Assembly (NCBI GenBank): GCA_017436305.1
Contig: JAFSDJ010000092.1
Coordinates: 1 to 42,710 of the forward strand
Direction: 5' to 3'
Length of the DNA stretch: 42,710 nt
Origin: Lachnospiraceae bacterium
GTDB taxonomy: Bacteria; Bacillota; Clostridia; Lachnospirales; Lachnospiraceae
In this document: piece after piece, positions 1-28,569 of the stretch
How the letters are laid out: each line of letters begins with the position of its first letter
Position numbering within the stretch: the first letter of the stretch is position 1
Notes under the pieces: generated by a model
What the model was told of the DNA's origin: nothing
What the model saw: the letters and a program-made list of their open reading frames with translations, nothing else
Databases searched by the model: none
Translations under genes and position numbers: made by a program

Positions 1-387
1 ATAGTGCGAACTATTTTAAAACTATTATTCAACAGAGATTTTATGAGGCGCTTATGAGAGCACAAATATTTGCTTCTTATAAGATTGGCTAAAATAACCA
101 CCTATTGATAAAGTGTGGATAGTTCGATATTTGATTTGGAAGGTACGTATTTCTAAGATAAAAGAAGTTATTCAAAAGAATAATTAGTGGAAATAGATTA
201 TGAATTTGTACAAAAGAGAATATTGACAGTATCTAAGAAAGAAGATACACTAAAAATAAGCTTTTGTGTATTCTTACCAGTAAATGCATTTTGGAAGATG
301 TTTTTTTGTTAATTATAAACTATAATATATTAAAAACTGTGATGAAAAGTGATAAATATAATATTAGACATATAGGGGGATAGCACG
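1..387. other. Gene-poor left flank with small orphan ORF
   Basis: No recognisable gene lies before the first CDS. A 41-codon ORF with a GTG start runs from 187 to 312 on the + strand. It has no clear ribosome binding site and no family resemblance, so I do not call it as a gene. The stretch holds a good promoter (223-251) and an inverted repeat (GATACAC at 244-250, GTGTATT at 266-272) that covers its -10. It is AT-rich with scattered stops, consistent with intergenic DNA or the degraded end of a preceding gene outside the window. Confidence 0.5.
223..251 (+). promoter_or_regulatory. Probable sigma-A promoter of the phosphorelay operon
   Basis: TTGACA (223-228), a 17-bp spacer and TACACT (246-251). 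The -10 lies inside an inverted repeat (244-250 and 266-272), which could be an operator or a hairpin at the very 5' end of the transcript. The leader to the first CDS would be about 130 nt. AT-rich TATAAT matches also occur nearer the gene (321-326, 357-362), but without a good -35. Confidence 0.5.
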
Positions 388-1197
388 ATGAGATATAAGA
401 CTTTGCTAATAGGAGAAAATAATGCTATTATTGATGATTTCTTTTTCCAAATGTCCGGGCATTTTGATATTATGACAACATCAAATCGTAATGATGACAT
501 TATAAATCATTTAGAAGTTTTTCAGCCGGATATTTTAATATATTGCATGAATGCAGATTCCAAAAAAGATTTTAACAGAATGTATTTCCTAAAAGAAAAG
601 CTAAAGAAAAAAGGGATTCTATTAGGTGTTATTGGAACAAAAGAGATTTGCAGGGAATTTGAAAAAATTGCATTCGATGCAGCTGATATTATGTTAGAAA
701 CACCTTTAACAGCCAATACGATAATGACTGAAATAAGAGTCTTTATTAGAAAAAAGAAAAGCGAGCAGACAGAGAAAGAGGAAGAACAGAAGCTTATAGA
801 AGAAAAAGAGGAAAATGTTACAGAAATACAAAAGAAGCACATATTGGTCATTGATGACGATCCAATGATGCTCAAACTGGTAAATGAACAGCTTCACGAA
901 AGATATAATGTGGCAACAGCCATTTCAGGAAAGCTTGCACTTACCTTTTTGGAAAAGAAACATACAGATTTGATTTTATTAGATTATGAAATGCCTGTAA
1001 ACAACGGTGCAGAAGTGTTGAAAAAGCTTCGGGCCAATCCGGCAACTAAAGACATACCGGTAGTATTTTTAACAGGTGTATCTAATCGTAGTACAATTCA
1101 GGAAGTACTTGCCATGAAACCACAGGGATACCTACTAAAGCCAATTGATAGTGAGAACCTGTTTAAAGTTATTATGGACGTTTTAGGGAAAAAATAA
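388..1197 (+). CDS. Double-receiver response regulator without output domain
   Basis: A 269-residue protein with two receiver-like folds joined by a Glu/Lys-rich coiled linker (about residues 125-150). The N-terminal unit (about 1-122) has the receiver pattern but lacks the acidic pocket and a convincing phosphoacceptor, so it is probably a pseudo-receiver. The C-terminal unit (about 151-269) is a complete receiver: IDDDP acidic pocket, phosphoacceptor Asp199 in LLDYEMP, Thr in FLTG and Lys in the LLKPI motif. There is no DNA-binding or enzymatic output domain, so it likely acts by protein contact or as a phosphate shuttle (inference). It is the first gene of the cluster, 134 bp upstream of two hybrid kinases that each end in an HPt domain, which makes it a natural partner of their phosphorelay. 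The start follows a GGGGG-type ribosome binding site. Confidence 0.85.
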   Translation: MRYKTLLIGENNAIIDDFFFQMSGHFDIMTTSNRNDDIINHLEVFQPDILIYCMNADSKKDFNRMYFLKEKLKKKGILLGVIGTKEICREFEKIAFDAADIMLETPLTANTIMTEIRVFIRKKKSEQTEKEEEQKLIEEKEENVTEIQKKHILVIDDDPMMLKLVNEQLHERYNVATAISGKLALTFLEKKHTDLILLDYEMPVNNGAEVLKKLRANPATKDIPVVFLTGVSNRSTIQEVLAMKPQGYLLKPIDSENLFKVIMDVLGKK

Positions 1198-1212
1198 TTA
1201 TCATTCACACTC

Positions 1213-1262
1213 CAGCCAATCACATGTTGATTGGCTGAATGCAAATATATGGATTTTTGCAT
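1213..1262 (+). repeat. Two tandem hairpins between regulator and kinase genes
   Basis: The first is a perfect 10-bp inverted repeat (CAGCCAATCA 1213-1222, TGATTGGCTG 1228-1237) with a 5-nt loop. The second has 7-bp arms (ATGCAAA 1239-1245, TTTGCAT 1256-1262). Neither is followed by a clean U-tract. They may be a processing or attenuation site that lowers expression of the downstream kinases relative to the receiver protein, or a weak terminator of the first gene. Confidence 0.6.
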
Positions 1263-1331
1263 TGTAAATATTGAAGGTATCCAATAATCAGTTTTTGTGT
1301 AAAAAATAAGGGTAAAAATGGGGGAAAGAGT

Positions 1332-4034
1332 ATGGGTGAAAATTTTAAGAACTTTGTAGAAGAGGAGTTGTATTTAACAGATTTAATTGATGTAGAAACT
1401 TTGCAAAGCATTCAGGATGCATTTTCTAACCTGGTAGGGATTGCTGCCATGACTACGGACGCAAGTGGTAAACCGCTTACGAAAGGGTCCAATTTTTCTG
1501 AGTTTTGTAGTAAGTATAACAGAGGAACAGAAATTGGCGGTGAAAGATGCAGAAAATGCGGAAGAATGGGAGCAGAGGAGGCTTTGCACCAAGGCAGATC
1601 AAAAGTATATGAATGTCATGCAGGACTGTTTGATTTTGCTGCGCCCATTATGGCAGATGGCAAAATGGTAGGCTGCTTTGTAGGGGGACAGGCACTGGAT
1701 AGGGAGCCGGAGCCGGAAAAGTTTTACAAAATAGCCGGGGAGTTGGGAGTAGATCCAAAGGAATATTATGAAGCAGCAAAAAAGGTAACCATTATGCCTA
1801 AGGAAGAAATTGATAAGGCTGCAGATTTTTTATATGCCATAGCCAATGTTTTATCAACAATGGCTTATAGCAAATATCTTACATATGAGGCAAACAAAGA
1901 GATTAAGAAGGTTTCTGATATGAAGTCAGATTTTCTAGCTAATATGAGTCATGAAATCAGAACACCAATGAATGCAGTAATAGGTATGGCCGAAATGGCA
2001 TTGAGAGAAGAACTTACCCCGGTTGCCAGAGATTATATTTGCCAGATTAAAACATCAGGACAAACATTGCTTACCATTATTAATGATTTATTGGATTTTT
2101 CAAAAATTGAATCGGGAAAGATGGATATTATACAGGACGAATATGAGACTATGTCAGCAATACATGACATAGTTGGAATGGTGGCCACAAGATTAAAAGA
2201 TAAGAAAGTGGAACTTATTGTAGATGTAGTTCCTGATATTCCGGAAAAGTTGTATGGTGACATTGTAAGGAATAAGCAAATACTAATTAATCTGGCTAAT
2301 AATGCTACCAAATTTACCAATAGTGGATATATTGCTATCCGTGTAACATATGAAAAATCAGATGAAGATACGGTATTATTGAAAATAGCAGTAGAAGATT
2401 CAGGTATTGGCATTAAAGAAAATGAATTAGACTATTTGTTTGAAACATTTTATCAGGCTGATAGTAAAAGAAACCGTAATATAGAGGGAACAGGCTTAGG
2501 CCTTGCAATAACAAAAAATTTATTAAAGCTGATGAATGGCAATATCCAGGTAAAAAGTATTTACAATCAGGGCAGCACTTTTTCCTATAGTATTCCTCAA
2601 AAAATTGTAGATTCAAAAGCAAGTATACAGATAGAGAATGGGGAAAATTATCACATTTTAACTGTAGGGCTGGAGACTTATGCACAAAAACAGCTTGAAA
2701 AAGATGCAAAGCGCTTAGGCATCAGTTATGAGCGTTTTATTAAAGTTGAAGATATAGATTTAAAAGATGTGGATGAGAACACATTTCTATTTATAGAGCA
2801 TGCATATTTTTCACCGGGTATAGAGAATTTTGTACGTAATACACCACGACTTAACGTGTTTTTGATGGTTGATTATTTTTCAACCATGGAAAGTGATATT
2901 CCTAATTTACGAATAATAAAAAAACCTGTATACGTTCTCAATTTAGTCCATTTACTGAGAAATAAAGAGACAGTTATAGAATTAAATGCACAAAATGAAG
3001 ATAGTTTTGAATTCATAGCACCAACAGCAAAAGTTTTGATTGTTGATGATAATACAGTAAATTTAGTAGTAGCAGAAGGTTTACTAGAGCCTTTAAAAAT
3101 GAAGGTGGATACTGCCACTTCCGGATTAGAGGCTATAGATAAAATATCTTCAGAGTATTATGACCTTATTTTGATGGATCATATGATGCCGGAATTAGAT
3201 GGAGTGGACACAGCACATCTTATCCGGCAACATCATAAAGAGTATGAAAAGGTCCCCATTATTATGCTGACAGCCAATGCGGTAGATGGAACAAAGCAGA
3301 TGTTCTTGCAGGAAGGGCTAAATGACTTTGTACCAAAACCAATTGAGGTAAAAGTACTTGTGTCTGCCATTGCCCGATGGCTTCCGGGCGAAAAGGTTCA
3401 AAAGACCAAAGTTTTTTATAAAAATCCGGATAATTTAAAGGAAGAGACAATAATTATTGGGGATTTAGATGTCCAAACAGCTATAAAAAGGCTGGGAAGT
3501 AAAAAACTCTTCTGGACAGTACTAAAAAAATACTTTAAGTCTATTGATAAAAAATCAGAAGCCATACGGAGAGCTTGGGAACAGTCTGACTGGGAGCAGT
3601 ATATAACAGAAGTTCACGCATTAAAGAGCACTTCAAAGCAAATTGGTGCCGATACATTATCCGATTTAGCCAAAAGGCTTGAATTTGCCGGTAAAGCAGG
3701 AGAGTTTGAAATAATAAAAGAAGAAACTGCAAAATTATTAAAAGAATATTCAAAGTATTCTATTATTTTAGAACCCTATTTTAAGGAAGTAGAAAAGACA
3801 GAGTGTGAAAAAGAAGAAATCGAAAACGAATTTTTGGTTAACAGCATTTCTAATATGGAACAGGCTATAGAAAGTTTAAATATGATTCAGATGGAAAAAT
3901 TACTGGAAGATTTAATGAAATACAAAATGTGTAAAAGAGATGAAGAATATGTTTGCCAATTAAATGCAGCAGTAGATGCCTATGATGCAGATACATGTGA
4001 GAGTATTCTGGCAGAATGGAAAAAGAGAATATAG
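1332..4034 (+). CDS. PocR-domain hybrid histidine kinase with REC and HPt
   Basis: A cytoplasmic 900-residue hybrid sensor kinase with no membrane segment. In order: a PocR-type sensory domain (about 10-180, with Cys-rich segment ERCRKCGRMG and YECHAGL), a DHp domain with His207 in MSHEIRTPMN, HATPase with N-box (about 314-330) and G-box EGTGLGLAITK (about 386), a degenerate receiver-like segment (about 435-560), a full receiver (about 566-685, Asp616 in LMDHMMPELDG, Lys in VPKPIE), and an HPt domain (His762 in EVHALKSTSKQIG), then a coiled tail. PocR domains are known as small-molecule sensors; the ligand here cannot be told. The complete His-Asp-His chain implies a phosphorelay whose final acceptor is another protein, plausibly the double-receiver protein upstream. 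The next gene follows after 27 bp and is a paralogue from the DHp domain onward. Confidence 0.9.
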   Translation: MGENFKNFVEEELYLTDLIDVETLQSIQDAFSNLVGIAAMTTDASGKPLTKGSNFSEFCSKYNRGTEIGGERCRKCGRMGAEEALHQGRSKVYECHAGLFDFAAPIMADGKMVGCFVGGQALDREPEPEKFYKIAGELGVDPKEYYEAAKKVTIMPKEEIDKAADFLYAIANVLSTMAYSKYLTYEANKEIKKVSDMKSDFLANMSHEIRTPMNAVIGMAEMALREELTPVARDYICQIKTSGQTLLTIINDLLDFSKIESGKMDIIQDEYETMSAIHDIVGMVATRLKDKKVELIVDVVPDIPEKLYGDIVRNKQILINLANNATKFTNSGYIAIRVTYEKSDEDTVLLKIAVEDSGIGIKENELDYLFETFYQADSKRNRNIEGTGLGLAITKNLLKLMNGNIQVKSIYNQGSTFSYSIPQKIVDSKASIQIENGENYHILTVGLETYAQKQLEKDAKRLGISYERFIKVEDIDLKDVDENTFLFIEHAYFSPGIENFVRNTPRLNVFLMVDYFSTMESDIPNLRIIKKPVYVLNLVHLLRNKETVIELNAQNEDSFEFIAPTAKVLIVDDNTVNLVVAEGLLEPLKMKVDTATSGLEAIDKISSEYYDLILMDHMMPELDGVDTAHLIRQHHKEYEKVPIIMLTANAVDGTKQMFLQEGLNDFVPKPIEVKVLVSAIARWLPGEKVQKTKVFYKNPDNLKEETIIIGDLDVQTAIKRLGSKKLFWTVLKKYFKSIDKKSEAIRRAWEQSDWEQYITEVHALKSTSKQIGADTLSDLAKRLEFAGKAGEFEIIKEETAKLLKEYSKYSIILEPYFKEVEKTECEKEEIENEFLVNSISNMEQAIESLNMIQMEKLLEDLMKYKMCKRDEEYVCQLNAAVDAYDADTCESILAEWKKRI

Positions 4035-4061
4035 GCAAAGGCAGAGAAAGGGGGAATTTTT

Positions 4062-7000
4062 ATGACAGAAAAAAAGGAACACCCATTTTATGAATGTGTC
4101 AATATGGTATTAAGACCATCGGATTTTGGATACAAAAATAATGTGCTGATAGTAAAGCACAATAATGCGTTTATAAAAAGAGAGGATATGGGCGATAACC
4201 CATATTATTCTTATAAAAAATCAAAAATCAGAAAACCTTATGAGCCTTTTTTAGACATTATTAAAGAGTATGTAGTGGAAAAAACTGCACATTGTAAAGG
4301 CTTTTCTTTGGATAGCTTCTTAGAAAAGGCAAAGGTATATCCGCTACACAAGGAAATATTTAAGAGATATTTTACGGGCCAGATTTGTGAAAGACAGGAA
4401 GAATTGCTACTTGGGGAATATAAATATGAAAAGGATAAGATGAAAAAGGCAATCGTAAATATGTATTCAGAAATTGCCAAAGAAAAAGAAGGCTGTCTTA
4501 TTTTAGATGAAATTAATCTGGCCAGCAATTTTGTAATATGGATGATGGAAGAAATATCCAAAAATCCCGAATATTTTCATATAAAAGTAATTGGCATTTA
4601 TAATGAAGCAGGAGAAGAACTTCCTTTTGCAAGTGATATTTTAAGGGAGTTCATTCATAGATGCGAGGAGGAAGCTTTAGTATATTACTGGCTTTTTGAA
4701 GAAGAAGTGGATATATTAAGTCAGCAAAAAGAGCCGGAAGCAGATATTTTTGAAATCATAAAGAACATAAAAAATATGTGTGTTTTGTTAGAAGAGGAAC
4801 CTGCAGCTTATTATGCAAGGTATTTAAATGAACAAATAGAAAAGTATAAAATCAACCTGAATCCCATATATAAAATGGTTTTACTTAAGGTAGACTATCA
4901 AATCAGTATGATGAGGGAAGAATTTGCATATGCATTGTATTTATGTAATCAGATGGAAAAACTGGCAAAAAATGAGCATATTTTTTCCTATGAGGAAAGG
5001 TTTGAAATTTTAGCATCAAAAACGTTAGTACATATGTATAGTGGAAATATTACCCAGCAAAAAGAAAATATAAAGGCATGCAGAGAAATTCTGGAAGAGA
5101 GAAAAGATGATAAGCTGCTTTTCAAAATAATGCTTATTGAAAATATGGCAAAGTATAACGGGTGGAGAAATCTTTGGATTTCTGAAAACGATACAGAGGT
5201 GTCAAATTTTTTAATAGAAAAATGCCTGGAATATAAGTACATAAATCACCTGGCACACATTTTTGTTTATTCATTTGGAAGTGATTATCATAAATTTTCA
5301 ACAATAGAAGGATTAGAGGAAAAATTACCGGAATTTTATAAAGGTATTGTATTGGGTGAACGTTTACAAAATGAACAGTTTTTAATTGAAGCATACCAAA
5401 AAAATATTATGCTTGCTTCTATACACGGTCAATTTCAGGTTAGCATTTATTTTTACAAAAAGAGTCTGGAAGTAGTAAAAAACAGTAAAAATGAAATAGG
5501 AGAAGCGGGAATTTATAATGGTTTAGGTTATAGTAATTGTGGAATTGAAAGTTACAAAAAAGCAAATGATTATTATAATAAAGCTTTAATTATATATTAC
5601 AAATACCAAATGCCGGATGAAATTGTAGAAACACTTTATAATCTTGGAATTAATGCTACGCTGGCCGGGGAGTATAAAAATGCAAGTCGTTATTTGATGG
5701 AAGCAGATAACATTCTTGGGGTTTTAAAGAAAAGCACCTTGAAAACCTGTGATATTGCTAAACTGTTTGGATTAATTGCATTAGTTAATTTCAGACAAAA
5801 GGCACCCTATCATACCCGTTTATATTTAAACAAATCCAAACAATATCTGGGACATATTCTGGATAAGGAGGACGAAGAAAAAATATATATCGCAGATGAT
5901 AGTATGTTTTTACAGTATTTTGTCTCCGGATTAATAAAACAGCAGGAGAAAAATTATGAAGAGGCAATGAAATGCTTTAAAAAAGCAAAATTTTACATGA
6001 AGCGTTCCACTGGAAGTATGTTTTTTAATTATTCAGAATTTATATTTGATTACTACCAGTTGTTGATGCAGTTAAACAGAGAAGCAGAAGCACAGGAGGC
6101 TATGACAGAATTTAGGCAATTTTGTGAGGAAAATCATTATTTTTACCGTCTGCATAAAATCAGTGAATTTTTAGGGGCAGTTGTTCAGTCCAATGAGTCA
6201 AAGGCTCCACAAATGATATTAGAAAAAATTACACTGGAAGACATCTCTAAATTAATGAAAATAAAAGCTGTTGAAAAAGAGAAGCAGTCACTGGTAAATG
6301 CAATCCGTTTCTTTAGCATAATTCAAAAAATCACAAGTCATATGACCAGAACCATAAAAGAAGAAGTTGCAGATATGATACCATTATTTAAAAATAATTT
6401 TGCTATAGATGATGTATTTTTAATACGCTGTATGGAAAATGAAAATGAAGTGGTATATAGTGATTTAGAAAATGAAATATCAAAAGAAAATATTGAATTT
6501 CTGGTAGATTATTTTAAAGCAACACAGGAAGGATTTGTTGTTTCACAGGATGGAATGCTACACAATGAGTATAAAAGAGTACTTTCCTGTTTTAGTGCAA
6601 GTCCTATATTATCTTTTGTGGCTGTTCCAATATTTGAAAATGAGCAGTTATACACTATTTTTATTGCCTATATTGAAATTAAAAACAATTGGTCGCCTTC
6701 AAAGGAAAAAAATATACTGGAAGAAAGAGATTTGGAGATATTTACATACATATTCAGAAAAATTTCCGATGCTATAGCAAAATTAGAGGCGAAAAACCAG
6801 TTAATAAAAGCTAATGATACAATGCGAGAGCAGATGCAGCATGTTTTGGAATTAAAAACCGAAGCTGAAGTTGCAAATATATCAAAATCTAATTTTTTGG
6901 CTAATATGAGTCATGAAATCAGAACACCAATGAATGCCATTATAGGTATGGCAGAAATTGCATTGCAGGGAGAATTAGGGACAGAGCAGCGCAAGAATAT

Positions 7001-8996
7001 TGAACAAATTTATTCTTCCGGAAAAACCTTATTGTCTATTATTAATGATATTTTAGATTTTTCTAAAATTGAATCAGGAAAGATGGACATTAACGTGGAA
7101 AAATATCAGCCATTGTCTATAATTCATGATATTGTAAATATAATTAATACCCGTATTGGTGATAAGAATCTGGAGTTTGTTGTTGACGTTGTTCCGGATC
7201 TTCCCTATGAATTGTTAGGAGACAGTATCCGAATTAAGCAGATTATTATTAATCTTGTTAATAACGCGGTTAAGTTTACAAAACAGGGAATGGTTAAGCT
7301 GAAAATTGCTTATGAGTACATAAATGATGAAAAAATACAGTTAAAAATCCATGTAAAGGATACTGGAATAGGAATAAAAAAACAGGATATAGGAAAGCTG
7401 TTTCAGGCCTTTCAACAGGTAGATAGTAAAAGAAATCGTAACATTGAAGGTACAGGTCTCGGACTTGCTATTACAAAGCAGTTATTAGCCTTAATGGGTG
7501 GAGAGATTAATGTAAAAAGTGAATATGGGCATGGTACCTGCTTTTCATGCTGTCTCCCACAAACAATTGTGACAAAGAAAGAAATGCCTGATATTTCTAA
7601 TATGGAGCAAATAAAAGCCGGAATTTTCATTGATAATTTTTATACGAAAAAGCAGTTAAAAACAGATATGAAAAGACTGGGAGTGAATTGTCAGGAAATA
7701 TTATCGCCAGAGGAACTTCTCGAGCTTATAAGAAACCAAATAGAGTATATTTTTATTGAAGAAAAGCATTGTACAGATAATATTCTTAATATATTGGAAA
7801 AATCTCCGGATACTAAGGGCGTATTACTAACAAACAATTATATTACGGAGAAATATGCTATTAGTAATTTAATTACTGTAAAAAAACCCATATGCTCATT
7901 GGAATTAGAAAAGATATTCAACCATGAGGACGTATATGGAACAAATTCAGAAATTGGGGAAAATGCCTTAGATTTTATTGCACCGGAGGCAGAGATTCTT
8001 ATTGTAGATGACAATTCCATTAATTTAAGGGTAGCAGAAGGCTTGTTAAAATCATTGCAGGTAAAAATTGATACGGCATGTAGCGGAAAAGAAGCAATTG
8101 ATAAAATATCAAAAAAGAAATACGATATGGTATTTATGGACCACATGATGCCGGAGTTAGATGGTGTAGAAACCACACATATTATCAGACGTTTTCATGA
8201 AGAGTATAGTGAGGTACCTATTATTGCACTTACTGCCAATGCAGTATCAGGAACAAAAGAAATGTTTCTTAGTGAAGGAATGAATGATTTTGTTGCAAAA
8301 CCAATTGAAATGAAAATTATTGTTTCAAAAATAAGACAGTGGCTGCCGGCAGAAAAAATAAAAAAAGCACAAAGTGGCGGAAATACCCAAGAACAGGTAA
8401 CTAACAGTAATATTCAGATTGAAGGCTTGGATGTGCAGTATGCATTAAGCCTTGTAGGTGAAGAAAAGTTGTTCTGGCTTGTATTAAAGGAATATTATCA
8501 AGCCATAGAAAAGAAAAAAGAACTTATTCATAAGTATGAACAGATGGAGGAATGGAAGGCATATACAGTAGAGGTACATGCTTTAAAGAGTGCTTCCAGA
8601 CAAATCGGTGCTTTAGAATTAGCCGGAGAAGCAGAAAGAATGGAGAAGGCAGGAAAAGAAGCAGATGGAGAGCTGATACATAAATGTACGCCGGATTTAT
8701 TGACCCTGTATGAAAACTATCAAAGCATATTAGCTCCGTTTTTTGAACAGAAGCAGGACAAAGATACAGAAAAAGAGATTATTTCTTTGGAGAAATTAAA
8801 ACAATTGTTTGAAGAATTGCGGGAAGCTTTAGACTCACTGGATATGGATGGCATGGAAAGAGTTATGAAAAAAATGGATGAATACCAATATCCGGAGGAA
8901 CAAAAGAATATGTATGACCAGCTAAAAAGTGCAGTAGAGCAGATTGATTCAGAAACCAGCGAAGGTATTTTGCAATTGTGGGAAAAGAAGTTATAA
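4062..8996 (+). CDS. Giant AAA/TPR/GAF hybrid histidine kinase with REC and HPt
   Basis: A 1644-residue cytoplasmic sensor kinase. The N-terminus (about 1-235) resembles the AAA_16/STAND ATPase of TPR-containing regulators: PYEPFLDIIKEY near residue 60 and a Walker-B-like CLILDEINLAS near 145-155. No Walker A P-loop is visible, so it is probably a dead or ligand-only NTPase fold. TPR-like helices fill about 240-700, a GAF-like domain about 740-905, then a coiled coil. The kinase core follows: His951 in MSHEIRTPMN, HATPase with GTGLGLAITK, a pseudo-receiver, a receiver with Asp1360 in FMDHMMPELDG, and HPt with His1506 in EVHALKSASRQIG. This half is closely related to that of the preceding gene, and the H-box DNA is almost identical, indicating duplication with exchange of sensor modules. 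The start has an AAGGGGG ribosome binding site. The ATPase gene follows after 18 bp. Confidence 0.88.
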   Translation: MTEKKEHPFYECVNMVLRPSDFGYKNNVLIVKHNNAFIKREDMGDNPYYSYKKSKIRKPYEPFLDIIKEYVVEKTAHCKGFSLDSFLEKAKVYPLHKEIFKRYFTGQICERQEELLLGEYKYEKDKMKKAIVNMYSEIAKEKEGCLILDEINLASNFVIWMMEEISKNPEYFHIKVIGIYNEAGEELPFASDILREFIHRCEEEALVYYWLFEEEVDILSQQKEPEADIFEIIKNIKNMCVLLEEEPAAYYARYLNEQIEKYKINLNPIYKMVLLKVDYQISMMREEFAYALYLCNQMEKLAKNEHIFSYEERFEILASKTLVHMYSGNITQQKENIKACREILEERKDDKLLFKIMLIENMAKYNGWRNLWISENDTEVSNFLIEKCLEYKYINHLAHIFVYSFGSDYHKFSTIEGLEEKLPEFYKGIVLGERLQNEQFLIEAYQKNIMLASIHGQFQVSIYFYKKSLEVVKNSKNEIGEAGIYNGLGYSNCGIESYKKANDYYNKALIIYYKYQMPDEIVETLYNLGINATLAGEYKNASRYLMEADNILGVLKKSTLKTCDIAKLFGLIALVNFRQKAPYHTRLYLNKSKQYLGHILDKEDEEKIYIADDSMFLQYFVSGLIKQQEKNYEEAMKCFKKAKFYMKRSTGSMFFNYSEFIFDYYQLLMQLNREAEAQEAMTEFRQFCEENHYFYRLHKISEFLGAVVQSNESKAPQMILEKITLEDISKLMKIKAVEKEKQSLVNAIRFFSIIQKITSHMTRTIKEEVADMIPLFKNNFAIDDVFLIRCMENENEVVYSDLENEISKENIEFLVDYFKATQEGFVVSQDGMLHNEYKRVLSCFSASPILSFVAVPIFENEQLYTIFIAYIEIKNNWSPSKEKNILEERDLEIFTYIFRKISDAIAKLEAKNQLIKANDTMREQMQHVLELKTEAEVANISKSNFLANMSHEIRTPMNAIIGMAEIALQGELGTEQRKNIEQIYSSGKTLLSIINDILDFSKIESGKMDINVEKYQPLSIIHDIVNIINTRIGDKNLEFVVDVVPDLPYELLGDSIRIKQIIINLVNNAVKFTKQGMVKLKIAYEYINDEKIQLKIHVKDTGIGIKKQDIGKLFQAFQQVDSKRNRNIEGTGLGLAITKQLLALMGGEINVKSEYGHGTCFSCCLPQTIVTKKEMPDISNMEQIKAGIFIDNFYTKKQLKTDMKRLGVNCQEILSPEELLELIRNQIEYIFIEEKHCTDNILNILEKSPDTKGVLLTNNYITEKYAISNLITVKKPICSLELEKIFNHEDVYGTNSEIGENALDFIAPEAEILIVDDNSINLRVAEGLLKSLQVKIDTACSGKEAIDKISKKKYDMVFMDHMMPELDGVETTHIIRRFHEEYSEVPIIALTANAVSGTKEMFLSEGMNDFVAKPIEMKIIVSKIRQWLPAEKIKKAQSGGNTQEQVTNSNIQIEGLDVQYALSLVGEEKLFWLVLKEYYQAIEKKKELIHKYEQMEEWKAYTVEVHALKSASRQIGALELAGEAERMEKAGKEADGELIHKCTPDLLTLYENYQSILAPFFEQKQDKDTEKEIISLEKLKQLFEELREALDSLDMDGMERVMKKMDEYQYPEEQKNMYDQLKSAVEQIDSETSEGILQLWEKKL

Positions 8997-9014
8997 GACA
9001 CTTTTGGAGGTATT

Positions 9015-9875
9015 ATGGTATATTTATCACATTTTGAATTTCCGGACACGGAGAGGGAATATGACTTTATATTTGAACAAAAGAGAACCTGCTACGATAC
9101 TTATTATCCGTTTCAAATAGTATCTAAGCACAATCTGACAATGTTGGACTTTGAACCGGTTACAATACTGTATGGTGGTAATGGCTCCGGCAAATCTACT
9201 ACTTTAAATATTATTGCGGAAAAGCTGGGGCTTGAGAGAGATACCTTATACAACCGTTCTAATTTTTTTGAAGATTATACAAAATTGTGCAGCTTTAAAA
9301 CACAGCAGAAAATTCCAAGAAGCAGCAGAATTATTACCAGTGATGATGTGTTTGATTTTATGTTGAATTTAAGAAGTATAAATGAAGGAATTGATGGAAA
9401 GAGGGAAGAACTGTTTCAGGATTACATGGATGCAAAATATTCTCATTTTCAAATGAAGTCCTTAGAGGATTATGAGCAGTTAAAAAAAGTCAATATGGCA
9501 AGAAGCAGCAGTCAGTCAAAATATGTTCGAAAAAAACTTACCGATAATATCAGGGAACATTCCAATGGAGAAAGTGCCTTTCTTTATTTTGCAGAAAAAA
9601 TTAAAGAAAATGGCTTGTATTTGTTAGACGAGCCGGAAAACAGCCTGTCAGCCCAAAAGCAACAGGAGTTACTGGGATTTTTGGAGGATTCTGCCCGTTT
9701 TTATGGGTGTCAGTTTATTATTGCCACCCATTCTCCGTTCCTTCTATCCATGAAAGGTGCTAAAATATATGACATGGATGAGGAAGTTGTGGATGTTAAG
9801 CATTGGACTGAATTAGAGAATGTCCGGACGTATTATGAGTTTTTTAAGAACCATGAGAATGAATTTGGGGATTAA
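9015..9875 (+). CDS. ABC-type AAA ATPase (AAA_21-like)
   Basis: A 286-residue soluble ATPase. It has Walker A GGNGSGKST (54-62), an ABC-like signature HSNGES (about 184), Walker B LYLLDEPENSLS with Asp205-Glu206, and the H-loop in ATHSPF (His239). This is the compact SMC/ABC-like ATPase family often annotated AAA_21 or AAA_15. There are no membrane segments and no partner permease, so it is not a transporter subunit. It starts 18 bp after the giant kinase gene behind a GGAGG site, so it is very likely in the same operon. That pairing suggests it is a regulated output or accessory of the phosphorelay, but its substrate is unknown. Compact ATPases of this type also occur in phage-defence and nuclease systems; no nuclease gene is adjacent here. 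Confidence 0.85.
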   Translation: MVYLSHFEFPDTEREYDFIFEQKRTCYDTYYPFQIVSKHNLTMLDFEPVTILYGGNGSGKSTTLNIIAEKLGLERDTLYNRSNFFEDYTKLCSFKTQQKIPRSSRIITSDDVFDFMLNLRSINEGIDGKREELFQDYMDAKYSHFQMKSLEDYEQLKKVNMARSSSQSKYVRKKLTDNIREHSNGESAFLYFAEKIKENGLYLLDEPENSLSAQKQQELLGFLEDSARFYGCQFIIATHSPFLLSMKGAKIYDMDEEVVDVKHWTELENVRTYYEFFKNHENEFGD

Positions 9876-9952
9876 AGAAAATTTATAATGGTATTTTTGG
9901 TATTCTAATCAATGATGCCGGGGTTGAATATCATATCAGAGAGGGACAAATT

Positions 9953-10438
9953 ATGTATTCAAATATATTAGTAACCCACGGAAGCTGCCCCCATTGTGGT
10001 AAAAAAATAAGGGGATACATGGAAGATTATTCGGATTTTGGAAGTCCTGTCAGAACATGTAAAAAATGTAAAGGTAAATACTTAGACGGAAGATATCACG
10101 AAATTGCCATTGATGGCATTGGAGCTTCAATGTCTGTAAAAAGAAGTGGCAAAACAGCATTAATTGGTTTTGGTATATTTTTAGTAACATTTCTTTTTAA
10201 TTTAGTAATGGTAATACTGGATGGTAAGTATAATCCTGAAATGGTGTTGTTACAAGCTTTTGCACTTATCATAATATTTTCGGCACTTGTGGATGCCATT
10301 ATGATAAAAACAGGTATAAAGGGAAAACAACTGGAGAAAAAAAGAATAGAATCTGATAAAAGGCTTAAAGATATTCGATATGCCAGAATGCTTGCTGAAT
10401 TTGGTTATGATGTGCCGGAGGAATATTTGCGAGTGTAG
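9953..10438 (+). CDS. Zinc-ribbon membrane protein, function unknown
   Basis: A 161-residue protein. The N-terminus has a two-knuckle zinc ribbon (CPHCGKK near residue 13 and CKKCKG near 37). Two hydrophobic helices follow (about 68-90 and 98-120), and a basic cytoplasmic tail ends the protein. The start is set by GAGGG at 9941-9945, 7 nt before the ATG. The reading frame stays open about 75 nt upstream of this ATG and overlaps the end of the ATPase gene, but no better start codon is present. It follows the ATPase gene by 77 bp on the same strand and may be co-transcribed. Not recognised as a named family; a membrane-anchored nucleic-acid or metal-binding role is only a guess. Confidence 0.7.
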   Translation: MYSNILVTHGSCPHCGKKIRGYMEDYSDFGSPVRTCKKCKGKYLDGRYHEIAIDGIGASMSVKRSGKTALIGFGIFLVTFLFNLVMVILDGKYNPEMVLLQAFALIIIFSALVDAIMIKTGIKGKQLEKKRIESDKRLKDIRYARMLAEFGYDVPEEYLRV

Positions 10439-10494
10439 TTGCGGAAATAAGAGGAGAAAAAAGTGTGAATCTAATATCCAGCACTAAATAGTTC

Positions 10495-10523
10495 TTTACA
10501 GAATAAATATTCTGTCTTATAAT
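10495..10523 (+). promoter_or_regulatory. Consensus promoter with palindromic operator in the spacer
   Basis: TTTACA (10495-10500), a spacer of exactly 17 bp and TATAAT (10518-10523). A perfect 8-bp-arm inverted repeat (ACAGAATA, AA, TATTCTGT; 10498-10515) fills the spacer and overlaps the -35. A second short palindrome, ACGCA-A-TGCGT (10530-10540), lies just after the likely start site. The AAGGAG site (10545-10550) precedes the ATG at 10561. The layout is that of a repressed, probably autoregulated promoter for the helix-turn-helix gene that follows. Confidence 0.75.
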
Positions 10524-10560
10524 GAAACCACGCAATGCGTATATAAGGAGTATAAGATAG

Positions 10561-11289
10561 ATGGAATTAAATGAAGCAATACGAAATCTTAGAATAGAAA
10601 CAGGAATGAACCGCAAAGTGTTTGCAGAGCATTTTGGGATACCCTTGCGGACAGTAGAGGATTGGGAAGCGAACCGAAGAACGCCACCGGAATATATTCC
10701 AAGATTGTTATGTTATCAATGGAAGTATGAGCAAATAACTAAAAAATCTGCGCTTTATAAGAATCATCAAGATAGGAATATCAATATAATTATTGACCCA
10801 GAAGGTAACAAAATTGTGATGATACATGACTCAATATTTCGAAATAAGCAAAATATAAATTGGTCAGATGTAGAAAAGTATTTGGAGCAATATATTGGGG
10901 AATTGTATACAATTGCTGAAGATGGAGAGAAAATTTATATAGGTAAAGATTTACCGGATGAATATGCACATTCCGATTATTCAGCAAAGTTAAAAGGAGC
11001 TCTTGCAAAGACAAAGGCTAACGCAGTGCAGGCAATTCCTGAAATGATTGAAATATCCACGAACGGAAGTTATAGTGTTAATACAGAAAGCAAACACAGA
11101 CTAGACGCTAAATACGGCTGGTATCGTTACGATTCACGATTTGCAATTGCTGTATATGATAATGCTGGCGAAATTGAAAGATATAATGTATTTAAGGCGA
11201 GAATGATAATACGATATGATGCAGACGGTAAAAAATATTTGTACGATGTAATAAACATAAAAAAAGAACCGAGTACCCCGCTTGGCTAG
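10561..11289 (+). CDS. XRE-type regulator with C-terminal phage-associated domain
   Basis: A 242-residue protein. Residues 1-55 form a helix-turn-helix of the XRE/Cro type (segments MNRKVFAEHFGIPLRTVEDWE and ANRRTPPEY). The C-terminal half (about 120-242) carries a pattern GWYRYDSRFAIAVYDNAGEI, then RYNVFKARM and LYDVINIKKEPSTPL. I associate this pattern with large polyvalent phage or conjugative-element proteins (LPD3-like), where it usually sits next to nuclease or toxin domains. Fusion to a DNA-binding head suggests a self-regulating accessory-element protein. It could be an antitoxin-like or nuclease-like module; I cannot tell which. Its promoter carries a palindrome suited to autoregulation. 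It is monocistronic, with a hairpin overlapping its 3' end. Confidence 0.7.
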   Translation: MELNEAIRNLRIETGMNRKVFAEHFGIPLRTVEDWEANRRTPPEYIPRLLCYQWKYEQITKKSALYKNHQDRNINIIIDPEGNKIVMIHDSIFRNKQNINWSDVEKYLEQYIGELYTIAEDGEKIYIGKDLPDEYAHSDYSAKLKGALAKTKANAVQAIPEMIEISTNGSYSVNTESKHRLDAKYGWYRYDSRFAIAVYDNAGEIERYNVFKARMIIRYDADGKKYLYDVINIKKEPSTPLG

Positions 11290-11324
11290 ATAAAATCTAC
11301 GTACGGTAAAAACCGGTTCCTTTT
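11261..11324 (+). terminator. Probable terminator overlapping the 3' end of the XRE gene
   Basis: AAAAAGAACCG at 11261-11271, still inside the coding sequence, pairs with CGGTTCCTTTT at 11314-11324 with one bulge, and a T-rich end follows. The long loop contains further short complementary segments. Overlap of a terminator stem with the last codons is unusual but seen for compact accessory genes. Confidence 0.4.
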
Positions 11325-11415
11325 AAAGTAGTATAATAAAAAAGAAAGAAAAAAGCAAGTTTTTTTAACGAATGTTCAAAACTAACAAAGTCTCATTATA
11401 AAAAAGGAAAGAAAA

Positions 11416-11943
11416 ATGTACCAAATATCCATTTATTTTAACAAAATTGCAAATTCCATGATAACTTATTACATCAATCACGTGGCCGTTGTAAGTGGCA
11501 ATTCATTCATGATTGACAATCAGGTTCCGCCTCATATTACATTGTCATCCTTTAATACAAAGGATGAAGCAGCGGTGATTTCTGCCCTTGAGGAAGCATC
11601 CAAAAACTGGCAGCAGGGAAAAATTAAATATGTAACAACAGGCACTTTTTTCCCATTTGTTTTATATATTGCTCCTGTGCTCAATGAGTATTTGCATGGA
11701 CTTTCAGTAGATATTTATAACGCTCTTGAGCCAATAGAAGGAATTGAAATCTATAAATACTACAAGCCTTTTCAGTGGATTCCTCATACAACCATTGGAA
11801 AAACACTTTCACAAGAAGAAATGCAAAAAGCCTTTCGACTAATGCAGACTGATTTCAATGTTTTTGATGCAAAAGTGGTTAAAATTGGGTTAGCAAAGAC
11901 AAATCCTTACCGGGATATATGGGAGTATGAATTAAATTTATAG
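11416..11943 (+). CDS. 2H phosphoesterase (2'-5' RNA ligase-like)
   Basis: A 175-residue protein with the two signature motifs of the 2H phosphoesterase superfamily: PHITLSSF (near residue 40) and PHTTIGKT (near 122). Each supplies a His-x-Thr to the active site. The family includes 2'-5' RNA ligases and cyclic phosphodiesterases acting on 2',3'-cyclic or 2'-5' linked nucleotides; the true substrate of stand-alone bacterial members is mostly unknown. The length fits the family. The start ATG follows an AAAAAGGAAAG site. The gene stands alone between the XRE gene and the mazE operator. Confidence 0.8.
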   Translation: MYQISIYFNKIANSMITYYINHVAVVSGNSFMIDNQVPPHITLSSFNTKDEAAVISALEEASKNWQQGKIKYVTTGTFFPFVLYIAPVLNEYLHGLSVDIYNALEPIEGIEIYKYYKPFQWIPHTTIGKTLSQEEMQKAFRLMQTDFNVFDAKVVKIGLAKTNPYRDIWEYELNL

Positions 11944-12059
11944 CAGGTAAAAAGAAAATTATGGTAAACGTTGTTTGGGAGCGGTGTTGTCAGTTTGAAG
12001 ACAAAATAAAAAATGTATAAAAAGTACCTTCAGACATGTAATATTAGTATTGAAATTTT

Positions 12060-12087
12060 TTTACAAGGTATATACTATGTATATACG
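12060..12087 (+). promoter_or_regulatory. mazE promoter with twin GTATATAC palindromes
   Basis: TTTACA (12060-12065) and TATACG (12082-12087) are separated by 16 bp. Between and over them lie two copies of the self-complementary octamer GTATATAC (12068-12075 and 12079-12086), 3 bp apart. Alternating palindromes over the promoter are the known arrangement for autorepression by MazE or MazE-MazF complexes, so this is the likely operator. Confidence 0.7.
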
Positions 12088-12107
12088 CAAATGTAAGGAG
12101 GATTTTT

Positions 12108-12350
12108 ATGCAGGCACAAGTAAGAGAATGGGGAAACAGTCAGGGAATCAGACTTTCAAAGGAAGTACTAAAAAGTGCAGGAATTGCATTGAATGAGGTT
12201 CTAGATATTACCGTATCAAATGGTGTAATTACCTTAACAAAACCATTTCGTCACAAAACACTGGAAGAAAGAGCCGCAGAATTTGGCGGAAAGCTAATGC
12301 TTGATGGTGAATATGATTGGGGAGAACCTATGGGAAGAGAGGTATGGTAA
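12108..12350 (+). CDS. mazE: MazE-family antitoxin (AbrB/SpoVT fold)
   Basis: An 80-residue AbrB/MazE-type DNA-binding antitoxin. The N-terminal swapped-hairpin DNA-binding domain is clear (QVREWGNSQGIRLSKEVLK), and the acidic C-terminus (EFGGKLMLDGEYDWGEP) is the usual toxin-wrapping tail. A near-perfect AAGGAGG site precedes the ATG. Its stop overlaps the start of the adjacent mazF reading frame (TAATG), as expected for a coupled antitoxin-toxin pair. The operator upstream is intact, so the antitoxin is probably still expressed even though the toxin gene is broken. Confidence 0.9.
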   Translation: MQAQVREWGNSQGIRLSKEVLKSAGIALNEVLDITVSNGVITLTKPFRHKTLEERAAEFGGKLMLDGEYDWGEPMGREVW

Positions 12351-12559
12351 TGGAACATTTGCATCAAGGAGATATTCTTAAAATAGAGAAAATCAAACAT
12401 CCGGTATTGGTTGTTAGTAAAGATTTTTTTAATACTAGTGGTGAAATAATTGGATGTCCGATTATTAGAAACTTCATGCAAGGTCCAATGCACAGTCTGA
12501 TGCCATTGCTCAGACAGCAGGATATTTCCTCACAAATTCTTTTGCCTTTTCATAATTAG
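12350..12559 (+). pseudogene. mazF: Truncated MazF toxin
   Basis: This starts at the ATG that overlaps the mazE stop by one base. The first 50 or so residues match the start of a MazF/PemK-type endoribonuclease: HQGDILKIEKIKHPVLVVSK, then IIGCPIIRN. After about residue 50 the family pattern ends, and the remaining residues are the antisense reading of a gene on the other strand. At 69 residues it lacks the distal half of the roughly 110-residue fold, so it is very unlikely to be an active mRNA interferase. No continuation is visible in the other frames downstream, so this is a truncation or junction and not a simple frameshift. Confidence 0.75.
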
Positions 12560-12880: not shown

Positions 12881-15800
12881 ATGAAGAGAAGGAAAAACAT
12901 ACTGACAAAAAAAGGCATATATACCCTACTGTTGACAACTGCATTATTCATGGAAGTGAATACTGTCTGTATGCCATTAGGAGTGGTTTTTGCAGAAGAA
13001 CCTGTAGAAGAAATTAAGTTGCTTGATGAAAGCGAATTTGTCGAGGAAATTGCTACAGAACAATCAACTACACAGGTGTCTGCTAATGATTTAAGTGATG
13101 AGCAGAGTGAAAGTTCAGACGAAAACAGCCAACAAAGTAACGAAGAGGTCATATCATTAGAGGATACGGAAACGGAACCTTCCGAAGAAGAAACCACCGA
13201 AAAGACTATCAACAACCCATTCTACATAAAAACAGAAGACGAAATCAGCAGAGTTACGTCTTCCTACTTAGAAAACACAGAAACTAACAAAGTTGCCATT
13301 GACGAAACGGTACCCATTGCAGAAACCTCTGTATATAAAGACATAGATTATTCTTTTTTAAAGGATTACGATTTTGGAGGATGTAATTCAGCTTCTGTAA
13401 AGGTAACCTTTGACTCTATGGAGGATTTAAAAGTCAGCCAGGATGTGCGCTTAAGAGAAGGAAATATAATCAGAACAAAGGGCTATTACCAGGCTGGTGA
13501 CGGAGGCGGAGCAGTCTATGAGATTTCTAAAGTAGCAGGTACAGGAAGTGTACAGCTTGCAAATGGATTGTATGCAATATTGCTTCCGGATACATATACT
13601 TGTACGGTAAATAATGGAAGTGAGACATGGGTTGTTGTAAATATTAAGCAGTTTGGTGCAAAAGCAGACGGAACTGTAGCTTCTGAGGCAGCATTTTCAA
13701 CAGCAGCTAATTTTGCTAATAAATACATGGAAAATAATGATGATATTTTTAGAGGTATTGTATATATTCCAACCGGAGAATATAAGTGTGACAACGAAGT
13801 TCATTTTGACAAAGTTAAAAATTTAAACGTTGTAGGTGATGGTTCTTCCTCTGTTTTATTTACTGATAATGATTACAGAGACCAGGAAGGTTATGCGGAG
13901 CATTTTTTTCAATCATGGTACAGTGAAAATATGTTTTTTGGAAATTTCCGCATTGAAGCAAGAGAGGTAGATTTATATCATTATATGAGACAGCTTACAT
14001 TGCTGTATTGTAATCAGGTGTATATTTATAACGTAGACATGATTGTTCCTCAGGAAAGCTATTCCTCTTATTATTTTGAGGACAAACAGTATTCCAACTT
14101 TTGTGCTTATACAGGAAACCACAATGTAACAGTAGATGATTGTACTATGGTACAGTTAAGCGGAACCTATCGAGGTGCCAATATTGGTATTCTGGATATC
14201 TGGTCTGCCAAAACATCCAACATTACAGTCATGAACTGCGATTTGTACGGAAATGCCAGAGATGAGCAGATTGGTATGTTTAGTACAAAATATGAGTCTT
14301 CAGGTGTTAGCAACGTGGATTTTATCAATAATACCATACATTCCAGCCAGTTAAAGTATACGGATATTATAGGCACAAGAACTATGTGCTTTACATTGGC
14401 ATATACAGACTCTCAAAATGTGGACGATATAAGAATTGCAGGCAATCATTTTATTTGTGAAACAGATTCCAAGTTTATGACCTTTGCAAATATTACCAAT
14501 TGTGTAGTAGAGAATAATATTATCGAAATTATAACTTCCAATGACAGTGGGGCATCTGTGTTTGACTCCTCTAATTCGGATCCGGACAATGTTATCATCC
14601 GAAATAACGAATTTTTTCTAACCAGCGTGGATGGTACTCAGGGAAAAGGAGGCGTTGCCACCGGTTATTTAACAATGGAAAATAACAGGTTTATTTCCGA
14701 TATGTATTTGTCCTTTTATTTTGCCCACAAAGGAGCAGTAGCAAAAAATAATGAAATAGTATTTCTCCGTAGCATGTGTTCACTTGCAGAAGGCACATAC
14801 GAGTTTACCGGAAATACGGCTCACTTGTATAATAGCGTTAGATTGGACGGTTATGGATTTAGAAGATATTTTATTGTTACTGCTGATGCAACTAAAGGCG
14901 ACAAAGTTCAGATTAATAATAATACCATATATGACTATAAAAGAATTGTAGAAAAAAGAGGGTCATTTGCAGGGTTGTTTGAAGTAAACACCAGCGTTGA
15001 CACTTTGGAATTTAGTGGAAATACATACAATGCACCCAATAAAAAATACACATGGTGTGATTTAAGCCAGTGCATTACAGAGGGAGATAGAAAAGATACA
15101 GATATTAATCCGGACGGTTCCTATACCTATTACGACAGAATTTTCCGAATGAGAACGTTTGGTGGCAAAAATCTTATTATAAAAGACAATAAGCTGCAAG
15201 GTACTATGGGATATTATGGCTCATTTTCAGAGGGACAGACATACACTGCCACCGGCAATGAGACACTTCCTTATAGAGAAGATATAAGCACAGAGGAATC
15301 TATAGTAAGCAGCATTGATATTTTATACAATGGACAAAAAACAAGTAATGTTACAGTAACCTCAGATACAGTTACTCTGGATAAAATTGTACGGATTGTT
15401 GCAGAAACAGATGAGGATGGCAACATAACCAAAGAGGAAGAAACTACAGAAAAAGAAGTCAAATGGTATACTTCTGTGGATGGCATTGCATCTATATCTG
15501 ATACTGGTGTTGTTACAAGACATTTATACGGAGACGTGAAGGTGTTTGCAGTTGCCACAGACGGAAGCGGTGTTTATGGTGAATGTACTATACATTTCCA
15601 GAAAAATCAGGCCAGAGAAATTACACTTGCAAAAGACTCACTGGACTTACAGCCGGGATTAAAGTTTTATGCAGATTATACCGTATTACCGGAAGGAACC
15701 TCACAGAACGTGCTTTGGACTTCTTCTAATGAAGCAGTAGCAACTGTTTCTAAAACCGGTACAATTACTGCAGTAGCTAAAGGAGATGCAACTATTACCG

Positions 15801-20237: not shown

Positions 20238-20999
20238 ATGGGAAATATTATCTTAAAGACAACCGATTTAACAAAGAAGTATAACAATAAGGCAGTTGTT
20301 GATAACTTAAATATTGAAATCCGTAAAGGAGAGATTTTTGGATTGTTAGGGCCAAATGGTGCGGGTAAAAGTACCACTATGAATATGATTTGTTCAATTG
20401 TACGCCCTACAGCAGGCGAGATTGAATTGTTGGGCAAGAATCCTTGGAAACAGAAAAAAGAAGTAATTCATAAAATAGGTTATATTCCTCAGGAGCTTGC
20501 TATTCATGGAAATCTTAAGGCTTGGGAGAATGTAGAATTGTTCACTTCTCTATATGGAATAAAAGGTCAGGAGTTGAAAAAGGCGGTGGGTGATTCTTTA
20601 GAATATGTAGGTTTGTTAGAGCGAAAACAGGAATTTGCCAAGAATTTTTCCGGTGGTATGAAAAGAAGATTAAACATAGCCTGTGCACTTGGTCATAATC
20701 CGGAGCTTTTAATATTTGATGAGCCCACTGTAGGTATTGACCCACAGTCCAGAAATTTCATCTTAGATAAAATTAAAGAGTCAAATGCTAAAGGTGCTAC
20801 AGTTATCTATACAAGCCACTATATGGAGGAAGTAGAAGCAATCTGCACCAGAATTGCAATCATGGATAATGGAAAAATTATTGCTTGTGGAACCAGCCAA
20901 GAGTTGAAAAAACTCGTTAATAGTGGCCATGAAAATATTACATTGGAAGAAGTATTTTTGACACTTACAGGTAAAAAACTGAGAGATTATGCGGAATAG
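20238..20999 (+). CDS. ABC-2 exporter ATP-binding protein
   Basis: A 253-residue ATPase of the ABC-2/DrrA-type export family. Walker A GPNGAGKST (about 38-46), Q-loop region IGYIPQE, signature FSGGMKRRL (about 136-145), Walker B LLIFDEPTVGIDP, and the switch His in YTSHYMEE. It energises the two membrane proteins that follow. The start follows AAGGAGAG. It is the first gene of a five-gene operon: ATPase, permease, permease, sensor kinase, response regulator. Such sets commonly handle antimicrobial peptides, lipids or membrane stress; the substrate is not readable here. Confidence 0.92.
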   Translation: MGNIILKTTDLTKKYNNKAVVDNLNIEIRKGEIFGLLGPNGAGKSTTMNMICSIVRPTAGEIELLGKNPWKQKKEVIHKIGYIPQELAIHGNLKAWENVELFTSLYGIKGQELKKAVGDSLEYVGLLERKQEFAKNFSGGMKRRLNIACALGHNPELLIFDEPTVGIDPQSRNFILDKIKESNAKGATVIYTSHYMEEVEAICTRIAIMDNGKIIACGTSQELKKLVNSGHENITLEEVFLTLTGKKLRDYAE

Positions 21000-21011
21000 T
21001 GAGGGATAGAG

Positions 21012-23335: not shown

Positions 23336-23348
23336 AAAGGACTTGCAT

Positions 23349-24476: not shown

Positions 24477-24490
24477 AAAGGTGTGACTGT

Positions 24491-28493: not shown

Positions 28494-28515
28494 AAAAGAT
28501 GATAATATATTGATG

Positions 28516-28545
28516 GATGGCGTGGTATGGAAATGTCACGCCATC
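28516..28545 (+). repeat. 9-bp-arm hairpin between the two LRR genes
   Basis: GATGGCGTG (28516-28524) and CACGCCATC (28537-28545) are perfect complements with a 12-nt loop and no U-tract. It lies 10 nt upstream of the ribosome binding site of the second LRR gene. It may be an mRNA-stability or partial-termination element that sets the ratio of the two proteins. Confidence 0.7.
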
Positions 28546-28569
28546 AAATTATACAAGGGAGCGATGATA

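Follow-up and report, generated by a model that had tools for sequence, protein, structure and literature searches.

A double receiver without an output domain and its HPt-ended hybrid kinases in Lachnospiraceae

PleD-family proteins (REC-REC-GGDEF) contain two receiver-type domains, of which the second is degenerate. BarA/TorS-type tripartite kinases have the order HisKA-HATPase-(segment)-REC-HPt. HPt hybrid kinases and two-receiver proteins are both common kinds; in one census, two receivers accounted for 7.7% of two-domain proteins (PMC3018481). FrzZ of Myxococcus xanthus is described as a fusion of two receivers with phosphorylation sites D52 and D220; its output is thought to be protein contact, and it works in a chemosensory pathway in which it is phosphorylated by FrzE, a kinase with its own receiver (PMC4546325). 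Here we describe a locus of Lachnospiraceae bacterium (assembly GCA_017436305.1, contig JAFSDJ010000092.1) that encodes a double-receiver protein and two hybrid kinases. The window, i.e., the whole stretch analyzed, covers bases 1–42710 from the contig start (42,710 nucleotides, nt). The receiver and an HPt-ended hybrid kinase were found to form a real conserved unit without an output domain. No published account of this receiver–kinase family was found in an open-licence literature library.

Domain make-up of the receiver and the kinases

Four forward-strand open reading frames (ORFs) were confirmed at the positions first annotated: 388–1197 (double receiver, 269 amino acids, aa), 1332–4034 (kinase 1, 900 aa), 4062–8996 (kinase 2, 1644 aa), and 9015–9875 (an AAA_21-type ATPase, 286 aa). 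They are separated by 134, 27, and 18 nt, in this order. The source genome is 2.6 Mb in 107 contigs and 84% complete. Because the window is a contig start, the sequence of this genome gives no gene content upstream of the receiver gene.

Kinase 1 was read as PocR–HisKA (H207)–HATPase–unassigned segment (about 120 aa)–REC (D616)–HPt (H762)–C-terminal extension, with all Pfam domains above their cut-offs. In kinase 2, an N-terminal region (AAA_16/STAND-like in relatives), TPR, and a region that is GAF-like in relatives precede HisKA (H951), HATPase, an unassigned segment, REC (D1360), HPt (H1506), and a C-terminal extension. Its HPt was borderline: the genome search gave 27.2 bits and the protein scan 23.6, below the cut-off of 24.6. 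All relay residues of both kinases, as well as D199 of the receiver protein, were intact when read from the window. Both proteins are thus HPt-ended (tripartite) hybrid histidine kinases, in which a single polypeptide combines HisKA, HATPase, REC, and HPt with an intact His-Asp-His relay, as the initial annotation had proposed. The BarA model spanned both, and the scores for the BarA equivalog NF008318 were 401.8 and 388.4 bits against a cut-off of 890. The domain order is that of BarA/TorS-type kinases; the differences are that the sensors here are PocR or TPR and that a receiver without an output takes the place of a DNA-binding regulator as the partner. The initial annotation called both kinases cytoplasmic. 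No membrane domain family scored above cut-off in the Pfam scan of the locus proteins; no membrane predictor was run. Two further readings of the kinases were unsupported by hhalign: the segment between HATPase and REC as a second pseudo-receiver (E 0.03 to 0.22), and the extension after HPt as a second HPt (E 0.09).

The protein encoded at 388–1197 gave a single Pfam receiver, at residues 152–262 (87.1 bits, cut-off 30.2). No Pfam receiver model matched its N-terminal half. A profile–profile alignment of residues 1–126 with the C-terminal receiver gave an hhalign E value of 4e-7 over 118 columns (58 rows; one comparison, made without a negative control). On this basis and on residue counts, the N-terminal domain (388–762) was classified as a pseudo-receiver. 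Since Cys53 sits at its phospho-Asp position, the protein has one acceptor and not two. The initial description as a double receiver without output held for the two receiver-like domains and for the absence of an output domain; only the Asp199 domain has the phospho-Asp.

The 58 alignment rows were divided by locus number into group A (49 rows; the window and L112–L173) and group B (9 more distant rows; L174–L189). In group B, the kinase, where present, lies upstream, and two receivers (L174 and L177) have no nearby kinase. The pseudo-receivers of group A keep D37 (49/49), H41 (48/49), and C53 (45/49), so this domain looks constrained and not decaying. The corresponding counts in group B were 0, 0, and 3 of 9. 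In the C-terminal receiver, D156, D157, D199 (codon 982–984, the proposed terminal acceptor), and K251 were invariant in all 58 rows. The switch pair was nearly so, with T229 and Y248 each in 57. At β4, the FATGUY motif (F-x-T/S-G-U-Y) of receiver-only regulators such as SdrG and MrrA was incomplete: F was found in 58 rows, L in 57, T in 57, and G in 53, and Tyr at position 232 in none.

The protein resembles FrzZ in having two receiver-type domains and no output domain, with the N-terminal fold here recognized by profile only. It differs in that both FrzZ domains have a phospho-Asp (PMC4546325), whereas the N-terminal domain here has Cys53; FrzZ also belongs to a chemosensory pathway, and the kinases here are HPt-containing hybrid kinases of the PocR and TPR types. 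Methyl-accepting chemotaxis protein (MCP) genes were seen near two loci (L080 and L212); no neighbor family exceeded 7 of 64 loci, though most flanking genes were unidentified. The best natural PDB match of the receiver was to the PleD family (E about 4e-25), and the PleD equivalog NF007135 was its best NCBIfam model, with 76 bits against a cut-off of 474. Unlike PleD, the double receiver has no GGDEF domain, and its degenerate domain comes first.

Output domains fused to the double receiver were also considered, and no convincing case was found. Two long ORFs were seen, of 465 aa (L153) and 416 aa (L169); the latter has only a long linker. In the former (L153:9434-10828), a dihydrofolate reductase-like start, recognized by eye, may continue in the same frame to the double receiver, as a fusion or as an assembly artefact.

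Linkage in relatives and the sensory half of kinase 2

Relatives of the receiver were collected by a genome_contigs scan (84,980 species) with a five-row alignment. At least 568 were confirmed, and the best 80 were analyzed; near-copies were retained, and some loci were short. Of these 80 receiver genes, 73 had a kinase of this HPt hybrid family on their own strand no more than 1.5 kb away. The kinase was a PocR kinase downstream in 53, a TPR kinase downstream in 1, another kinase downstream in 4, and another kinase upstream in 15. For 69 of these kinases, REC and HPt regions were likewise recognized; the other four (L114, L147, L152, and L161) were incomplete. The receiver–kinase gap, measured from the matched span, was below 100 nt in 63 of the 73. 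Among the remaining seven loci, two (L130 and L131) showed no more than the beginning of a PocR kinase, at or close to the sequence end, one (L142) had a kinase on the opposite strand, and four (L158, L170, L174, and L177) had none. The initial view of receiver and kinases as a set without an output domain was borne out by these counts.

Outside the 80, a PocR kinase stood beside a double receiver in L071, L072, L211, and L212; L074 has one next to a receiver whose N-terminal half is dissimilar. L081 breaks off at a contig end. Six other loci (L069, L070, L073, L209, L210, and L201) are the same stretches as loci of the 80 and were not counted as extra evidence.

The gene order of the window recurred in L212, from another genus of the same family, with a receiver (283 aa), a PocR kinase (911 aa), and a TPR kinase (1653 aa); next come genes for an aldo/keto reductase and an MCP. 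A full double receiver directly precedes the TPR kinase in L201. The TPR kinase of L200 comes after a receiver ORF, read as 195 aa, without a recognizable pseudo-receiver half, and five genes separate this pair from a double receiver–PocR kinase pair. From these two arrangements, the true receiver is the constant partner. In 5 of the 80 loci (L141, L144, L154, L156, and L171), two PocR kinases in tandem lie behind one double receiver; L156 is from Eubacterium plexicaudatum ASF492, and its matched span is interrupted by stops. In a 95-row tree, the first and second kinases of these pairs fell into two separate starred clades (100 each); the tandem PocR pair is therefore one old duplication, apart from the pair in the window. 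The inputs vary across the unit and its more distant kin, including PocR, TPR/STAND-like regions, dCache (L184), and a periplasmic-binding neighbor (L125). At E 1e-20 or better, pseudo-receivers were found in 25 of 250 sampled genomes of the family.

Kinase 2 is a chimera: the other relatives of its sensory half (4062–6851) front GGDEF diguanylate cyclases. With its first 915 residues, 13 full-length relatives and one weak partial match were found in 60 related genomes. All 13 have a C-terminal GGDEF domain (read from the C-termini, one confirmed by Pfam), and their identity to the sensory half was 22–32%. These TPR-GGDEF diguanylate cyclases of Lachnospiraceae have the whole sensory half in common with kinase 2; they end in GGDEF and not in HisKA-HATPase-REC-HPt. 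In a wider search, with at most three candidates scored per genome, 18 of 299 genomes had matches, counting that of the window. In three of the other genomes, the frames exceeded 1200 aa, a length that none of the observed cyclases reached; once fetched, these three proved to carry kinase, REC, and HPt (L212, L213, and L215). One cyclase-length frame was fetched (L214) and ended in GGDEF. The remaining matches were classed by frame length or from the earlier C-terminus reading.

In a 20-row tree of the sensory half with a midpoint root, the six kinase-fused rows grouped as a single clade, supported by bootstrap 99 and SH-aLRT 97 and lying within the GGDEF rows; L214 was nearest to it (100/100). 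This single clade suggests that the sensor passed once from a diguanylate cyclase to a kinase. A single origin of all six fused forms was not rejected (p-AU 0.86). The kinase half of kinase 2 is a member of the PocR-kinase family. It was placed inside the PocR-kinase clade in the 95-row tree (96) and as its sister in a 33-row tree; given the latter, an origin within that clade is not claimed. AAA_16 matched weakly in 9 of 16 sensory-half rows (best E 1.7e-4) and GAF in two (best E 0.011). The window's kinase 2 matched neither at E 1, so both names rest on relatives. The sensory-half consensus contains a P-L-x-L-V-L-N-x-x-H stretch, and no P-loop was seen. The stretch falls where STAND ATPases have their Walker B region.

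The neighbors of the receiver loci were clustered over 64 loci (L112–L175). Besides receiver and kinase, no family occurred in more than 7 loci, and no third conserved gene emerged as a candidate output. The four identified members of the 7-locus cluster were mixed, ordinary ABC transporter ATPases, and the three identified members of a 5-locus cluster were subtilases. Ten flanking genes from five loci had no common function in Pfam.

Several side observations were made at these and related loci. Subtilase (Peptidase_S8) genes lie directly upstream of the receiver in L137, L151, and L152 and downstream in L075, and also occur in L162, L165, and L078; their identity was established for L137, L151, L162, L075, and L078. 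In 4 of the 64 loci (L162, L163, L164, and L165), a protein of 372–385 aa is encoded on the opposite strand just after the kinase (L162:3766-4881). The L162 copy has an HD_5/HD domain and is possibly a cyclic di-GMP (c-di-GMP) phosphodiesterase. A hybrid kinase beside a double receiver at L083:5528-9262 has EAL between a 7TM-like region and HisKA, which is another c-di-GMP link. A hybrid kinase-receiver protein at L118:13752-16418 has a C-terminal DegV domain in the same frame. The source genome itself has four more pairs of a hybrid kinase and a double receiver of about 260 aa, of a more distant sort (two on C95/L079, one each on C58/L080 and C106/L082). One of the C95 kinases comes after a TraX-7TM-GGDEF gene.

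The proposed phosphorelay and competing explanations

With moderate confidence, we propose that the locus encodes a two-input, one-acceptor multistep phosphorelay that ends on Asp199 and acts through protein contact, with the ATPase as only a neighbor. Kinase 1 would sense a small molecule through PocR; MEDS and PocR domains have been predicted to sense growth substrates or simple hydrocarbon derivatives (PMC1592074). The input of kinase 2 would be a cytosolic signal, received by a STAND-like/TPR/GAF-like module taken over from, or also present in, a diguanylate cyclase lineage. Each kinase would autophosphorylate at H207 or H951, and the phosphate would move on within the same chain, first to the receiver (D616 or D1360) and from there to the HPt (H762 or H1506). 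From the synteny, we infer that either HPt could donate to Asp199, so that both would feed the double receiver encoded first in the operon. Phosphorylation of Asp199 would switch the α4-β5-α5 face through the conserved Thr229/Tyr248 pair. The switched double receiver, or its pseudo-receiver, would then contact a partner protein encoded elsewhere, like CheY and as is thought for FrzZ. Conservation of these residues suggests that the output is probably such a phosphorylation-dependent, FrzZ/CheY-like protein contact.

Receiver residue classes, namely the FATGUY tyrosine and the switch pair, bear on the distinction between terminal and pass-through receivers (PMC9981736). By that account, with Thr229/Tyr248 kept and the FATGUY tyrosine absent, the Asp199 receiver looks more like the terminal, switching type than the pass-through type.

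Other findings weigh against this proposal. CpdR shows that motif classes do not settle whether a receiver is terminal or intermediate (PMC9981736). The double receiver of L075, outside the 80 loci, has no adjacent kinase, and the surroundings of the locus in relatives yielded no gene for a partner or an output. The HPts could feed regulators elsewhere too, because the genome has 46 receiver matches. Co-divergence was modest, was uncontrolled for relatedness, and gave the proposal weak support: over 37 receiver–kinase pairs, receiver distance correlated best with the extension after HPt (r 0.64) and the unassigned segment (0.59), followed by CA (0.48), HPt (0.38), DHp (0.34), the kinase's own REC (0.34), and PocR (0.31). 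The rank of HPt itself, below CA, speaks against the proposal.

The double receiver might instead be an intermediate hub: phosphate received from both HPts would go on to a further HPt or kinase and finally reach a DNA-binding regulator encoded at another site. Receiver-only hubs exist, and Spo0F and MrrA are described as such intermediaries (PMC9981736). This role would suit the lack of an output domain in the double receiver, as well as the abundance of HPts and receivers across the genome, which gave 10 HPt and 46 receiver matches. The nearly invariant switch Thr and Tyr (57/58 each) and the missing FATGUY tyrosine (absent in 58/58) do not, and the clustering of 64 loci gave no recurrent linkage to an HPt-only protein or a DNA-binding regulator. 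We consider a hub possible but unlikely.

A phosphate sink or feedback element is more doubtful still. In that case, the kinases' real output would be a regulator encoded elsewhere, which fits both the absence of an output domain and the exchange of sensory halves among kinases and cyclases. A pure sink would need neither the strongly kept D37/H41/C53 signature nor the Thr/Tyr pair.

As a speculation that we hold to be improbable, the D37/H41/C53 triad could be a sensing or partner-binding site (for a thiol, metal, or ligand). It would make the double receiver an AND-gate that joins the phosphate of two swappable kinases to a third signal, and the output would be direct action on the c-di-GMP network that gave kinase 2 its sensor.

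The adjacent ATPase and the rest of the window

The ATPase (9015–9875) belongs to AAA_21 (PF13304), with 55.5 bits against a cut-off of 27. Among the 25 NCBIfam matches listed for it, all were below their cut-offs. It has ABC-type ATPase motifs like PtuA/AriA-type AAA_21 ATPases (PADLOC PtuA 65.6 bits; AriA in PDB, E 1e-8). PtuA systems are defined by the HNH partner PtuB. The ATPase does not qualify as a PtuA of Septu-type defence: its matches to the PtuA models listed, which have 375–545 positions, were partial at 286 aa, and no HNH family was found in the next gene, which encodes a zinc-ribbon-like protein (weak match).

The initial annotation had placed the ATPase as the next gene of the operon and as the effector of the system. 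Physically it is next, starting 18 nt past the stop codon of kinase 2 on the same strand with no terminator-like site listed in the gap; in relatives, it was unlinked. Absence of synteny with the kinases in relatives had been set beforehand as the observation to speak against the claim, and the ATPase was not syntenic with them. No ATPase ortholog was found in any of the 80 receiver loci, within the DNA covered; the weak ATPase-like matches there were one generic (L146, 57.8 bits) and one weaker (L116, 34%). It was also absent from the genomes of L112 and L113, where the best match was partial (60.5 bits). The L212 trio had none beside it; the ATPase encoded three genes before its receiver is of the ordinary ABC transporter kind. 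Conversely, the ATPase was present at 54% identity or more in 7 of 61 genomes, the window's own included, and none of the orthologs in the six others adjoins a kinase of this family. Kinases of the family lay beside none of the 13 orthologs whose surroundings were read, and a comparison at E 1e-10 gave no gene common to these neighborhoods and the first 20 kb of the window. Behind one ortholog come a response regulator and a kinase of ordinary type (L091; 32% and 23% to the window's domains), and another has a 571-aa protein with a receiver-like stretch two genes away (L202).

Co-occurrence was examined in two 250-genome samples of the family, apparently the same draw. At strict, ortholog-level cut-offs, which were picked after the lists were seen, the pseudo-receiver (E 1e-20 or better) and the ATPase (E 1e-90 or better) were each found in 25 genomes and together in 3, against 2.5 expected (Fisher p 0.72), so co-occurrence was at chance level. 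With all listed matches (31 and 36 genomes), a mild excess was seen, with both in 9 genomes against 4.5 expected (p 0.025), or 8 against 4.2 without the window's genome (p 0.047). In all eight other genomes, the two were on different contigs. An effector role for the ATPase is thus extremely unlikely: its position 18 nt after kinase 2, the looser excess, and the signalling genes of L091 and L202 speak for it, but the receiver loci, the ortholog surroundings, and the strict count go against it. It appears to be an unrelated bystander and was judged to be outside the system.

Promoter-like sites over 1–12500 were not clearly above shuffles (67 vs 58, standard deviation 7.2), and no Rfam match at gathering score was found in the window. 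Two hairpins were seen in the 134-nt gap between receiver and kinase 1 (1198–1331); folding of this gap was not significant (z −1.55, 16/200 shuffles equally good). The window contains two further response regulators, at 24491–25120 and 41786–42475, each directly 3′ of its own kinase gene. The first ends the stretch 20238–25120, where an ABC transporter (ATPase and two permeases), a HisKA_3 kinase, and the response regulator make an ordinary transporter with its own two-component pair. Large surface-type proteins are encoded at 12881–18502 (Big_2/LRR_5/fn3), 26583–30864 (two LRR_5 proteins), and 34947–40394 (an 1815-aa alpha-amylase with several Big domains).

With the ATPase removed as a wrong lead, these results define a compact receiver and HPt-kinase unit, found mostly in Lachnospiraceae, in which the inputs change and the output-less acceptor stays. 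Kinase 2 adds a clear case of a whole sensory half common to diguanylate cyclases and a phosphorelay kinase. The unit poses the question of what an output-less receiver does in gut Firmicutes.

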